A stretch of DNA of 64,000 nucleotides from Sulfitobacter sp. DFL-14. GTDB lineage: Bacteria; Pseudomonadota; Alphaproteobacteria; Rhodobacterales; Rhodobacteraceae. The stretch is taken from the NCBI RefSeq assembly GCF_003335585.1, contig NZ_QBFD01000046.1, forward strand, positions 938,020-1,002,019, in the 5' to 3' direction. This document shows, one piece after another, positions 3,979-46,289 of this stretch. Numbering within the stretch: position 1 is the first letter of the stretch; every line of letters starts with the position of its first letter. The notes beneath the pieces were generated by a model. That model saw only the letters and a list, made by a program, of their open reading frames with translations. It was not told the DNA's origin and did no database searches. The position numbers were made by a program, and so were the translations under genes.

Positions 3979-5463
<1,485 letters not shown>

Positions 5464-42066: not shown

Positions 42067-43581
42067 ATGGCAAGAACAAACGCATATACCGACTTCAATC
42101 TGGCGCAGCATGTGCTGCGGGCAGGCCTTGCCACGCCGGACAAGGTGGCGCTGTCGCTGCTCTCGGCGGACACAAGCGAGGACTGGTGCTTTGACCGGCT
42201 GACACGGGCGGTCCGCGGCACCGGGACCGGATTGCGGGCGGCTGGCCTTGCGCCGGGCGACGTGGTGCTGATGCGCCTGGGCAATACCCCCGATTTCCCG
42301 ATTGCCTATCTGGGGGCGCTGGCCGCCGGGCTGGTGCCGGTGCCCACGGCAACGGCGCTGACCGAGGGCGAAGTGGCGCGGCTGTTGCCCGATCTGCGCC
42401 CCGCCGCCATCCTGCACGACCCCGATGTCCCCTGCCCGCCGCATCCGGCGCGCATTGATGTGGACGATCTGCGTGCCATGCAGGCGCTGCCGCCGGTGGA
42501 CTGGCATCTGGGCGATCCCGACAGGCTGGGCTATATCATCTATACCTCCGGCACCTCCGGCAGGCCCACGGCGGTCATGCATGCGCATCGTGCGATCCTG
42601 GCGCGGCAGATGATGTTCGATGGCTGGTACGGGCTGCGCGCTGAGGACCGGATGCTGCACGCGGGCGCGTTCAACTGGACCTTTACCCTGGGCACCGGGC
42701 TGATGGACCCCTGGACGATGGGCGCAACTGCGCTGATCCCGGCGCCCGGCACCCTGGCCGCAGATCTGCCCGAGCTGATGGCACGGCATGGCGCGACCCT
42801 CTTTGCGGCGGCCCCGGGAGTGTACCGGCAAATGCTGAAAGGGCGCGACCACGTCGCCCTGCCCGATCTGCGCCACGGGCTGAGCGCGGGGGAAAAGCTG
42901 AACCCGGTGGTGCGCGACGCCTGGACCGCAGCCACCGGCACCCCGGTTTACGAGGCCTTTGGCATGTCGGAATGTTCCACCTTCATCTCGGGCTGCCCGG
43001 ACCATCCGGCGACACCCGGCGCATTGGGCCGGGCGCAGGCGGGACGCCAGGTGGCGATCCTGACCGAAACCGGCCCCGCCGCAACCGGCGAAGCGGGCAC
43101 AATTGCCATTCACCGCAGCGACCCCGGCCTGATGCTGGGCTACCTTGGCGCGCCGGAACAGACCGCTGCACGCTTGCAGGGCGACTGGTTCCTGACCGGG
43201 GATCAGGGCGTGATGGATGCGAAGGGGCAGATCACCTATCTGGGGCGGCGCGACGACATGATGAACGCGGGCGGCTTTCGGGTCTCGCCGGTGGAGGTCG
43301 AGGCGGCGCTTGCCAATGCGCCCGGCGTCACCGGCGTGGGTGCCGCCGAGGTGGAGGTCAAACCCGGTGTCAGCGTGATCGCCGCCTTCTACACCGCGCC
43401 TGCCCCTCTGGACGATGCGGCGCTGGCCCGTTATGCGGAACGAACGCTGGCGCGCTACAAGCAACCGCGCCTTTACATTCACCTTGCCGCGCTGCCCACC
43501 GGGGCCAATGGCAAGCTCTTGCGGCGCAGGTTGCGCGCGGAATTCGAGGCCAGAAAAGATGCCGGACCCGATCAAGCTTGA
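42067..43581 (+). CDS. AMP-dependent acyl-CoA synthetase
   Basis: 504 aa adenylate-forming enzyme. P-loop YTSGTSGRPTAVMHAHR has PTAV in place of the usual PKGV, so the P-loop lysine is missing. YEAFGMSE, TGDQGVMDAKGQITYLGR and the C-terminal PTGANGKLLRR with the catalytic Lys are intact. The group resembles benzoate/fatty-acid CoA ligases; substrate unknown. It overlaps the DsbA/FrnE gene by 23 nt. Confidence 0.85.
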   Translation: MARTNAYTDFNLAQHVLRAGLATPDKVALSLLSADTSEDWCFDRLTRAVRGTGTGLRAAGLAPGDVVLMRLGNTPDFPIAYLGALAAGLVPVPTATALTEGEVARLLPDLRPAAILHDPDVPCPPHPARIDVDDLRAMQALPPVDWHLGDPDRLGYIIYTSGTSGRPTAVMHAHRAILARQMMFDGWYGLRAEDRMLHAGAFNWTFTLGTGLMDPWTMGATALIPAPGTLAADLPELMARHGATLFAAAPGVYRQMLKGRDHVALPDLRHGLSAGEKLNPVVRDAWTAATGTPVYEAFGMSECSTFISGCPDHPATPGALGRAQAGRQVAILTETGPAATGEAGTIAIHRSDPGLMLGYLGAPEQTAARLQGDWFLTGDQGVMDAKGQITYLGRRDDMMNAGGFRVSPVEVEAALANAPGVTGVGAAEVEVKPGVSVIAAFYTAPAPLDDAALARYAERTLARYKQPRLYIHLAALPTGANGKLLRRRLRAEFEARKDAGPDQA

Positions 43582-44197
43582 CATCATGTCAGACCCGATT
43601 TGCCCCTGGTGCTATATCGGAAAAGCCCATCTTGACCGGGCCCTGCTGGACCATCCGGACCATCCTTTCGTGATCGAATGGCACCCGTTTCAGCTGAACC
43701 CGGATATGCCCGCCGAAGGCATGGACCGGCGCGCCTATCTTGAGAACAAATTCGGCGGCAAGGAGGGCGCGGTGCGTGCCTATGCCCCGATCGTGGATCA
43801 TGCCCGGGAAGCCGGGCTGACGATCAACTTCGAGCAGATGAAACGCACGCCCAACACGCTGGATGCCCACAGGCTGATCCATTGGGCCGGGATCGAAGGG
43901 CGCCAGACGGCGGCGGTCTCTGCGCTGTTCAAGGCCTATTTCGTGGAGGCCCGCGACATCGGCGATGCCGAGGTGCTGGCCGATATCGCAGACAGCATCG
44001 AGATGGACGCAGGGGTCGTGACCCGGCTTTTGCAAACCGACGAGGACTGCAAGGCGATTCAGGACCGCGATGCCCACAGCCGCCGGATGGGGATCAATTC
44101 GGTTCCGACCTTCATCGTGGCGAACCAGCACGCGGTTCCCGGCGCGCAGCCGCCCGAGCTTTGGGCAAAGGTGATCGCAGAGCTGCGGGCCAGCTAG
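43559..44197 (+). CDS. DsbA-family FrnE-like thiol oxidoreductase/isomerase
   Basis: 213-residue-scale thioredoxin-fold protein with active site CPWC (SDPICPWCYIGK) and the family C-terminal block RRMGINSVPTFIVANQ (cis-Pro loop). There is no signal peptide, so it is cytosolic, like FrnE or 2-hydroxychromene-2-carboxylate isomerase relatives. Co-transcribed with the synthetase, perhaps in aromatic or fatty-acid metabolism. Confidence 0.88.
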   Translation: MPDPIKLDIMSDPICPWCYIGKAHLDRALLDHPDHPFVIEWHPFQLNPDMPAEGMDRRAYLENKFGGKEGAVRAYAPIVDHAREAGLTINFEQMKRTPNTLDAHRLIHWAGIEGRQTAAVSALFKAYFVEARDIGDAEVLADIADSIEMDAGVVTRLLQTDEDCKAIQDRDAHSRRMGINSVPTFIVANQHAVPGAQPPELWAKVIAELRAS

Positions 44198-44356
44198 CTG
44201 ACCCCAAACCAACATTCTGTTTTCGCGTGACTATGGCAGATCGGTCACATCCGGTGTCCATGTGGCACGCGGGCTTTGCCAGCACCCGCCCGCTGGCCTA
44301 ACCTGATGGCACAAATGGGGCACAGACCCCTGATCAGAACAGGTTGAGCGGGTACA

Positions 44357-44542
44357 ATGACAGACATTCAGGCGACGCCGGACCGCGATGCCGTGTGGCA
44401 TTCAGGCAAGGCTTTCATCATTCTTCCCCCCTCTGAAGAGGGCGGAAAAGCGGTGGCAGAGCCGGTATTCTTCCCCAGGCCCAGCCCCGTTCATGCCATC
44501 TGGCTGAAGGAATCCGGCCCGGTGCAGAGGACCGACGCATGA
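44357..44542 (+). CDS. Small hypothetical protein, partner of TagD-like gene
   Basis: 61 aa (MTDIQATPDRDAVW...). No signal or membrane segment; proline-rich centre. Its TGA overlaps the ATG of the next gene (ATGA), which is the main evidence that it is real. No family recognised. Confidence 0.5.
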   Translation: MTDIQATPDRDAVWHSGKAFIILPPSEEGGKAVAEPVFFPRPSPVHAIWLKESGPVQRTDA

Positions 44543-44943
44543 TCGGCCAGGTGCCCGGCCGGGTGGTGCTGACATATGGTGTTTTTGACGATATCGGGCC
44601 GCAAACCAGCGCAAGCCTGCGCCATCTGGGCGGCCTTGGCAGAGAGCTGATCGTGGGCTGCGCCACCGATGCGCTTTGTCTGCGCAGCGGCATCCGCTGC
44701 GCTTTGCCCTACCGTCAGCGGCGCGCGATGCTCGAACGCGCGCGCTTTGTGTCGCGGGTCATTGCGCAGGATTGCTGGGACCAGCTGCGCACCGATATCG
44801 TGAACTACAATGCAGGTGCCTTGGCACTGGGCGAAGTGCCCCCGTTTGTCGACCTGCAGGGGTTGAGCGACATCGTTCAGCTGCTTGAAATGCCCAATAC
44901 ATCAGCAACATTTTCTTGCGCGGAGATGCGGCTGGCGTCCTGA
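44539..44943 (+). CDS. Degenerate TagD-like nucleotidyltransferase lacking HxGH
   Basis: 134 aa that aligns end to end with glycerol-3-phosphate cytidylyltransferase-type proteins: VLTYGVFDD, ELIVGCATD, LPYRQRRAMLERARFVSRVI, CWDQLRTDIVNYNAGALALGE. However the catalytic HxGH that should follow FD is replaced (D-I-G-P-Q-T, residues 18-23) and the late ISST motif reads TSATF. Catalytic nucleotidyl transfer is therefore unlikely; a binding or regulatory role is plausible. Coupled to the preceding 61-aa gene. Confidence 0.7.
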   Translation: MIGQVPGRVVLTYGVFDDIGPQTSASLRHLGGLGRELIVGCATDALCLRSGIRCALPYRQRRAMLERARFVSRVIAQDCWDQLRTDIVNYNAGALALGEVPPFVDLQGLSDIVQLLEMPNTSATFSCAEMRLAS

Positions 44944-45056
44944 ATGTTAAAAATTCACGACTGTTTTTATAAGTTGTTGTCTGACCTGCAACCATGGGTT
45001 ATCCAAACGACGGAAAGCGCCAGTTTTTTTGTTCGGCGCACCTGTTGGAGTGCCGT

Positions 45057-46289
45057 GTGGACAAGCCGAAGCAAGAACTGACAATCCACAGGGCAGAGTT
45101 TGTCGGACTGATCGCGATGATGTTCGCCTCCATCGCGTTTTCCATTGATGCGATGCTGCCCGCGCTGCCGGAAATCTCGCGCGAACTGTCACCGGAACTT
45201 GCGCATCGTGCGCCGCTGATCCTGACCGCCTTTGTCTTTGGCATGGGGGCGGGCACATTGGTGACCGGCGCGCTTTCGGATGCCTTTGGCCGTCGTCCGG
45301 TGATCTTTGGCGGTGTGGTGCTTTATATAATCGGCGCAATGGCGGCCTGGGCCAGCCAGTCGCTTGAGGCGATGCTTGTCGCGCGGGTGTTTCAGGGATT
45401 GGGCGCCGCCGGCCCCCGCGTGGTGGCGATTGCCGTGGTCCGCGATCTTTTCTCGGGCCGGGATATGGCCAAGATCGTCTCTTTCATCATGCTGGTCTTT
45501 ACCCTGGTGCCGGCGCTGGCCCCGATCATGGGATCGCTGATCATCGAATTGTCGGACTGGCGCGGCATCTACCTGGCCTTTGTCGCATTCTCGGCCATCA
45601 GCGTGATCTGGATGGCAATCCGCCTGCCAGAGACCTTGCGGACCGAAGATCGCCGCCCCCTGCGGCTGCGCCTCTTGCTCGATGCCATCCGCGAGATCAT
45701 GACACATCGCACGGTGCGGCTGGCGATCATTGTTCAGGTCATGGCGATGGCCATGTTTTTTTGCACCCTGATGCTGATCCAGCCGGTCTATGCCCAGGTC
45801 TATGGCCGGGCAGAGACCTTCCCCTATTGGTTCGGCGCCGTGGCCGTGATCGCGGGCACATCCAGCATCCTGAACGCGCTGCTGGTCGAACGTCTGGGCA
45901 TGCGGCGGCTGGTCAGGCTGACGTTGTTCGGACAGATCCTGCTGTCCGGGTTCATGTATTTCTCCGGCCTTGCCAGCGCCGGCGGCGTGCTGGGGTTCGG
46001 GGCCTTCCTGTTCTGGCAATTGTGTCTCTTCGCCCAGGTCGGGCTGACGCTTGGCAACCTCAATGCCATCGCGATGGAGCCGATGGGCCATATGGCGGGC
46101 ATGGCGGCCTCTGTCATTGGCTCGATATCGACCATTCTGGCGGCGCTGATCGCCTCGCCCGTTGCCCTGATGTTTGCCGACGATGTGTCGCTGCTCTTCG
46201 GTTCCGTCTTGCTCATGGCCTGCGCGGCCTGGGGTCTGATGCTGATGCTGACACGCACCGAAGCGGACCTCGCCGCCCCGGCGGAGTAA
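45057..46289 (+). CDS. Bcr/CflA-family MFS drug-efflux transporter
   Basis: 410 aa with 12 membrane segments. Bcr/CflA signatures are SIDAMLPALPEIS in helix 1 and the loop 2-3 motif GALSDAFGRRPVIFGG, with ARVFQGLGAAGPRVVAIAVVRDLF in helix 5. The GTG at 45057 has GGAG 8 nt upstream and gives the normal length; a longer frame starts at 44994. Exports small drugs by proton antiport. Confidence 0.9.
   Translation: MDKPKQELTIHRAEFVGLIAMMFASIAFSIDAMLPALPEISRELSPELAHRAPLILTAFVFGMGAGTLVTGALSDAFGRRPVIFGGVVLYIIGAMAAWASQSLEAMLVARVFQGLGAAGPRVVAIAVVRDLFSGRDMAKIVSFIMLVFTLVPALAPIMGSLIIELSDWRGIYLAFVAFSAISVIWMAIRLPETLRTEDRRPLRLRLLLDAIREIMTHRTVRLAIIVQVMAMAMFFCTLMLIQPVYAQVYGRAETFPYWFGAVAVIAGTSSILNALLVERLGMRRLVRLTLFGQILLSGFMYFSGLASAGGVLGFGAFLFWQLCLFAQVGLTLGNLNAIAMEPMGHMAGMAASVIGSISTILAALIASPVALMFADDVSLLFGSVLLMACAAWGLMLMLTRTEADLAAPAE

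Follow-up and report, generated by a model that had tools for sequence, protein, structure and literature searches.

A TagD-like candidate pseudoenzyme and a small reading frame at the position of a LicD-like gene in Sulfitobacter

In the window, by which we mean the whole stretch of 64,000 nucleotides from Sulfitobacter sp. DFL-14 that was analysed, an open reading frame (ORF) of 61 codons ends on the start of a gene for a 134-aa protein resembling the glycerol-3-phosphate cytidylyltransferase TagD, the two sharing the four nucleotides ATGA (Table 1). An earlier note, made from the sequence alone, had pointed out this pair, and both reading frames were confirmed to be present. As the note regarded the larger protein as a TagD fold without its catalytic motifs, the question arises what such a protein and its small partner could be good for, and whether they form an undescribed two-gene module, as had been proposed, or a decaying copy.

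From our point of view, the module is real and goes beyond a decaying copy, and no paper that apparently deals with it was found in the open-access literature. It is, however, better read as a remodelled LicD-TagD operon, since the small gene begins where some relatives have the start of a LicD-like gene, a circumstance that was missed by the earlier note, as was the conserved stem-loop ahead of it. The explanation that we prefer, and that we hold to be reasonably probable, is a non-catalytic dimeric TagD-like scaffold that is translationally coupled to a mini-ORF in the place of LicD.

Table 1. Coordinates of the module, its leader and its neighbours in the window.
Feature	Position	Strand	Basis or spread
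DsbA/FrnE-like gene, constant upstream neighbour	43559..44197	+	PF01323, 7.3e-36; synteny
Promoter-like block TTTGCC...CCTAAC	44275..44302	+	by eye only; similar blocks 5' of the leader in relatives
Leader stem-loop GGGG-CACAGA-CCCC	44317..44330	+	conserved leader comparison
Conserved GAGCGGG immediately 5' of the first start codon	44346..44352	+	leader comparison
Small ORF of 61 aa at the LicD start position, AIWLKE near the C-terminus	44357..44542	+	22 genomes of the genus
ATGA stop/start overlap of 4 nt, putative translational coupling	44539..44542	+	NTGA in 22/22
Putative TagD-like pseudoenzyme of 134 aa, start within the small ORF	44539..44943	+	homologues in 52/62 genomes of the genus
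Codons of residues 20-23, GPQT, at the HxGH place of TagD	44596..44607	+	alignment
Codons of residues 50-52 at the place of TagD K44 and K46 (lost)	44686..44694	+	alignment
RFVS codons (residues 69-72), corresponding to the motif RYVD at the TagD dimer interface	44743..44754	+	alignment; motif role from PMC4470507
C-terminal tail (residues 121-134), where the ISTT region would be	44899..44940	+	pLDDT <50
MFS transporter, constant downstream neighbour	44994..46289	+	PF07690, 6.4e-39; synteny

One locus in several states

A TagD-like gene was found in 52 of the 62 genomes of the genus, that of the window included, and none of the listed matches contains an internal stop. Only four of the other 131 genera searched gave a TagD-like match, all four with HxGH and three of them adjoining a LicD-like gene. 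The order acyl-CoA synthetase (ACS)-DsbA-X-TagD-MFS is found in 50 of the 52 loci of the genus; in the other two, L058 and L082, the contig ends on the upstream side, and the TagD-like and MFS genes are still present. Four genomes (L055, L087, L058 and L053) have a LicD-like gene as X, and 22 have a small ORF of 55-66 aa. In 13, X is a stretch by which the TagD-like protein is extended in frame; L048 can be added to these, with ACG at the place of the start codon. Neither LicD nor an ORF of the small family is recognisable in the remaining 12, of which 11 have frames of 1-54 codons past the LicD start position (that of L075 has no start codon), while in L062 the frame from this position continues into the TagD-like gene. 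Five of these loci (L072, L074, L075, L083 and L090) show an open stretch of 34-36 codons that begins at the LicD start position and stops 16-53 nt 5' of the TagD-like match start; this is perhaps another upstream ORF.

The LicD-like proteins of the locus, which we take to be transferases, carry the core NSGTLLG...DHDDD. Since two of them fall just under the PF04991 cut-off of 22.6 bits (L087 with 22.3 and L055 with 21.6), this Pfam model alone is a weak test. A LicD protein search gave matches in all four LicD genomes, and neither this search nor PF04991 found a LicD-like protein in the genome of the window, in which a second TagD was likewise not found by protein search or TIGR01518. A second, canonical TagD occurs elsewhere in five of the 52 genomes (G031, G041, G043, G055 and G058). 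As a separate observation, G031 has an intact LicD-like gene at the locus (L053, about 4109-5418) next to a TagD-like protein without HxGH, besides its canonical TagD (L099) and two more LicD-like genes.

Compared with the LicD-TagD pairs of L055, L087 and L058, the window has the locus, the leader and the gene order in common, but the LicD body is missing and the 61-aa ORF stands there instead. Ancestrally, the locus probably had a stem-loop leader followed by a gene for a LicD-like transferase and then one for a TagD-like cytidylyltransferase. If the direction of change is read correctly, the LicD body would have been lost from most of the sampled genomes, and its start position would now be taken by an ORF of 55-66 codons ending on the TagD-like start (NTGA), by a fused extension or by short frames.

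In the 10 genomes without a TagD-like gene, DsbA is directly followed by MFS, and these genomes form one clade (SH-aLRT 100) in a quick DsbA+MFS tree with a distant outgroup. The module is dispensable, being absent from this clade, and since DsbA and MFS both remain where it is gone, these neighbours give no functional lead. In the same tree, the LicD carriers L055, L087 and L053 share a group (98) with the 12 genomes that have neither LicD nor small ORF, and most small-ORF genomes fall elsewhere. This suggests that LicD was probably lost more than once. As such, one locus within one genus presents a series of states from an intact two-enzyme operon to a putatively non-catalytic protein, namely the intact pair, LicD beside a TagD-like protein without HxGH, HxGH without LicD, the coupled mini-ORF, the TagD-fused extension and full loss, and this makes the change from enzyme to pseudoenzyme under selection directly testable.

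The leader and the small reading frame

Whatever the form of the locus (LicD, small, fused or other), the stem-loop leader was found ahead of it: one pattern picked 48 of the 52 loci, a covariance model added L047 and L082, and L085 and L058 were identified by eye. Where the loop has 6 nt (17 leaders), every cell of the stem is paired (shuffled mean 97.3%, with 2 of 500 shuffles as high), and for two of the four pairs one sequence each carries a change of both partners; taken together, this pairing and covariation provide modest sequence evidence for an RNA stem. RNAalifold gave 3 pairs and -2.49 kcal/mol on 48 leaders, the low yield being due to loops of unequal length, over which the alignment slips. 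With E values of up to 1 accepted, a model built from the 17 leaders recovered 33 of the 52 loci of the genus and missed 19; it also gave one stray match, in L050. Neither in the 10 module-less genomes nor in the outgroup loci did this model, with its recovery of 33/52 genus loci, find a leader, and none was seen when the DsbA-MFS gap of the 10 genomes was read by eye. When 150 of 1869 first-look candidates in the window's own genome were scored, one strong match (53.4 bits) was obtained and the next reached 16.7 bits (E 1.25), for which reason we discarded the idea of a regulon. Between 44000 and 45200, Rfam 15 gave only two chance-level matches, with E 0.92 and 3.4, which lie on the opposite strand.

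The small ORF starts at the same site as LicD, directly after the leader, and 13 of the 14 fused forms begin 10-11 nt past the leader motif. All 22 small ORFs end in NTGA with an in-frame ATG or GTG inside the stop, so that the 4-nt overlap is more than chance; other starts of the TagD-like gene are possible, as four of these loci offer an ATG at -1 nt and others have further in-frame starts. Ribosomes that end the small ORF would, in the mechanism that we propose, re-initiate on the TagD-like gene.

No match to the 61-aa protein was found in Pfam or NCBIfam up to E 1, the LicD domain included. An anchored comparison of 19 of the 22 small ORFs with the four LicD N-termini gave a mean score of 4.13; none of 300 shuffles exceeded 1.09, and none of 61 other LicD windows exceeded 0.33. 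The best E value of the small-family HMM against LicD was 0.081, which is not significant, and reversed decoys started from 0.75. The locus is a candidate for a small gene that arose where a larger one, now lost, used to begin, with leader and coupling kept. That our preferred explanation does not account for the origin of the AIWRNE motif of the small ORF speaks against it.

With respect to its spread, a profile of the 22 small ORFs run on 193 relatives returned, by construction, the same 22 genomes at E 2e-13 or better and, among the best first-look candidates per genome, nothing above marginal beyond them (G016, G058, G096 and G110, E 0.003-0.008). The sole match outside the genus in 390 genomes of the order, again among the best first-look candidates per genome, was that of G403 (E 1.7e-5), which is spurious, as it has an internal stop and neither a syntenic gene nor a TagD-like match. 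The small ORF of L050, which has no AIWRNE motif, was missed by the HMM and included by hand on position and NTGA overlap, and a 27-aa match inside the LicD of L087 was dropped.

One could imagine that the small ORF, as a mere translational leader, serves to bring ribosomes to the TagD-like gene and that the peptide itself has no role; the TagD-like protein could then still be functional. The small ORF varies strongly in sequence (12-27% identity to that of the window outside the window's own four-genome clade), with a variable middle, its length and overlap are constant, and its AlphaFold model has a mean pLDDT of 50 and no confident structure. However, [IV]WRNE near the C-terminus is found in 17 of the 22 and AIWLKE in 4, with W in all 22 and third codon positions that vary, as judged by eye; dN/dS lies at 0.17-0.44 in 9 pairs; and an upstream peptide is fused to the protein in 13-14 genomes. 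We thus regard a leader without a working peptide as a serious but rather unlikely alternative. Under the scaffold explanation, the upstream peptide would probably act jointly with the TagD-like protein, as the fused forms hint.

A predicted TagD-like fold and its missing active-site residues

The 134-aa protein matches TIGR01518 with an E value of 9.4e-12 but its 45.1 bits do not reach the curated TagD cut-off of 165.4, which the apparently intact TagD of L087 likewise misses (157.1 bits). Its alignment with Bacillus subtilis TagD (1coz) has an E value of 1.6e-9 over residues 9-121 and is gap-free from residue 9 to about 100. The AlphaFold model (pLDDT 82.9) is predicted to adopt the Rossmann-type TagD fold: Foldseek matches it to 1coz (E 1.3e-8), and the top structural matches in VIA-align are the TagD enzymes 2b7l (Z 17.6) and 1coz (Z 17.4). 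The claim that the whole fold is kept holds for the model to about residue 120, up to which it is confident; residues 121-134 have a pLDDT <50.

The window protein resembles TagD in fold, YG.FD strand, dimer-interface arginine and length, but differs from it in its active site. At the places of what we take to be K44, K46, K77 and D94 of TagD, with the roles that we assume for them, it has S, I, L and V; the GDDW aspartate is gone, neither histidine of HxGH is kept, and no RT..ISTT motif was found. The earlier note was hence right that HxGH and the late ISST/ISTT motif are gone, but understated the extent of the loss. HxGH and RTEG(I/V)ST(S/T) are the active-site signatures according to PMC6060094.

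Among the 22 small-partnered proteins HxGH is kept in two (L047 and L092) and lost in 20, and RT..ISTT, K44, K46 and GDDW are each kept in none. The fused forms (n=14) have HxGH in five and have lost it in nine; the 12 forms with neither LicD nor small ORF all have HxGH, and none of them has ISTT or both lysines. All motifs are present in three of the four LicD-partnered forms, the one of L053 having lost HxGH, one lysine and ISTT. Over the whole locus, RT..ISTT is found in 3 of the 52 homologues of the genus and absent from 49, and both lysines occur in 3/52. The co-occurrence of HxGH loss and small gene is therefore good but imperfect, being seen in 20 of 22 cases, and HxGH has also gone from proteins that have no separate small gene beside them (9/14 fused, 1/4 LicD-partnered). 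Nor are LicD loss and HxGH loss tied, since 12 genomes have HxGH without LicD and L053 has LicD without HxGH. The TagD-like tree shows five changes of the HxGH state, a count in which loss and regain are indistinguishable because the tree is unrooted and includes those columns. The simplest order suggested by the sequences would be that the lysines and ISTT went first, around the loss of LicD, followed by HxGH more than once, so that CTP-binding and catalytic residues would have been lost step by step.

The small and fused forms, 36 in all, have lost most catalytic residues. However, the residues that correspond to D11, R55, R63, Q76 and D80 of TagD are unchanged in 36/36, that for R63 being R69 in the window protein, and W74 is retained in 18/36. 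According to PMC4470507, the (R/K)(Y/W)VD motif that includes R63 sits at the TagD dimer interface, and the R63A variant of the B. subtilis enzyme had a tenfold lower kcat without considerable change in the KM for CTP. As this arginine is invariant, a role as protein partner, one of the two functions the note had suggested, is somewhat better supported than the other, a nucleotide-binding sensor. The latter finds little support, because the active-site signatures are what disappeared; a residual site is possible, as the second histidine of HxGH is found in 27 of the 36 small or fused forms (14/22 small-partnered, 13/14 fused) and is absent in the window. We infer that the product would act as a non-catalytic (homo)dimeric binding protein, its fold and interface arginine being kept by selection.

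It is also conceivable, if unlikely in our view, that the cytidylyltransferase fold has acquired a new ligand or chemistry in a rebuilt site. YG.FD and GC, which are present in 36/36 or 35/36 of the small or fused forms, would fit this, as would the frequent second histidine and the 12 homologues that have HxGH but neither both lysines nor ISTT. On the other hand, the place of the first histidine shows no new consensus in the small-partnered homologues (G, H, S, D or N), and the window protein has neither histidine.

A parallel to the scaffold explanation may be seen in CTP:phosphoethanolamine cytidylyltransferase, in which reportedly one domain of two is active, so that a cytidylyltransferase domain would likewise be retained without activity. 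There, the dead domain is said to be fused to a live one, whereas here a second TagD was not found in the genome.

As an additional observation, the motif TDIVNYN (44791-44811, residues 85-91) is highly conserved among small and fused forms, at 86-100% per position over the 36 proteins; a similar form occurs in the LicD-partnered proteins, and the motif is absent from 10 canonical outgroup proteins.

Selection and the remaining readings

For the TagD-like gene, dN/dS was 0.19 between the window and L042 (p 4.5e-9) and 0.05-0.40 in the other 15 pairs with finite dS (of 20; four pairs with infinite dS were not used), and the excess of silent change was significant in all nine pairs tested (Fisher p 3.8e-4 to 4e-29). 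The small ORF gave 0.30 between the window and L042 (p 4.3e-3), with p values of 4.3e-3 to 1.5e-7 in 4/4 pairs tested. The dN/dS of DsbA was 0-0.11, slower than both ORFs, which indicates that the module is selected, yet less tightly than its neighbour; MFS values of three pairs (dN >2, segments out of register) were not used. With catalytic residues lost and with fold and selection retained, the TagD-like protein would, as judged from sequences and a predicted model, qualify as a pseudoenzyme.

These values bear on the possibility that both ORFs are slowly decaying remnants of a dead LicD-TagD operon that have stayed open by chance. An intact LicD is missing in 48 of the 52 genomes with the TagD-like gene, the whole module is lost in 10 genomes, the derived part of the TagD-like tree has long branches, and the dN/dS of both ORFs exceeds that of DsbA in most pairs compared, all of which would agree with decay. 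Against it stand the significant Fisher tests in all TagD-like and small-ORF pairs tested, the lack of internal stops in the listed TagD-like matches, the NTGA overlap in every small-ORF genome and the residues that do not vary among the 36 small or fused proteins. We consider slow decay quite improbable, and the note's preference for repurposing is borne out by a gene that is open in 52 of 62 genomes and by dN/dS well below 1 in both ORFs. The note had taken the case that all homologues with the small gene keep HxGH as a sign of a decaying copy; only 2 of the 22 do.

A bolder and, to our mind, very improbable idea is that a dimer of the dead TagD would form, with the upstream peptide (joined to it as one chain in a sister clade), a regulatory complex that senses a metabolite or protein and acts on its own stem-loop leader, which has its only strong genome match at this locus; this would be a self-contained regulator derived from a discarded surface-glycan operon. 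Genus-wide retention and dN/dS disfavour a lone decaying copy, a pseudo-subunit of a live TagD has no second TagD to join in this genome (five genomes of the genus do have one), and a link to a LicD elsewhere has no counterpart in it either.

Two further observations concern the surroundings of the locus. The gene mfd was not found 3' of MFS within the DNA available for the 13-genome fused clade, unlike in the rest of the genus, some of the contigs being short (L045, L046, L048, L052, L054, L060, L061, L066, L067, L069, L070, L076 and L082). The module-less loci L114-L123 contain a different inverted repeat in the gap between DsbA and MFS, for example GCGTTCTCGA CTA TCGAGAACGC in L116.
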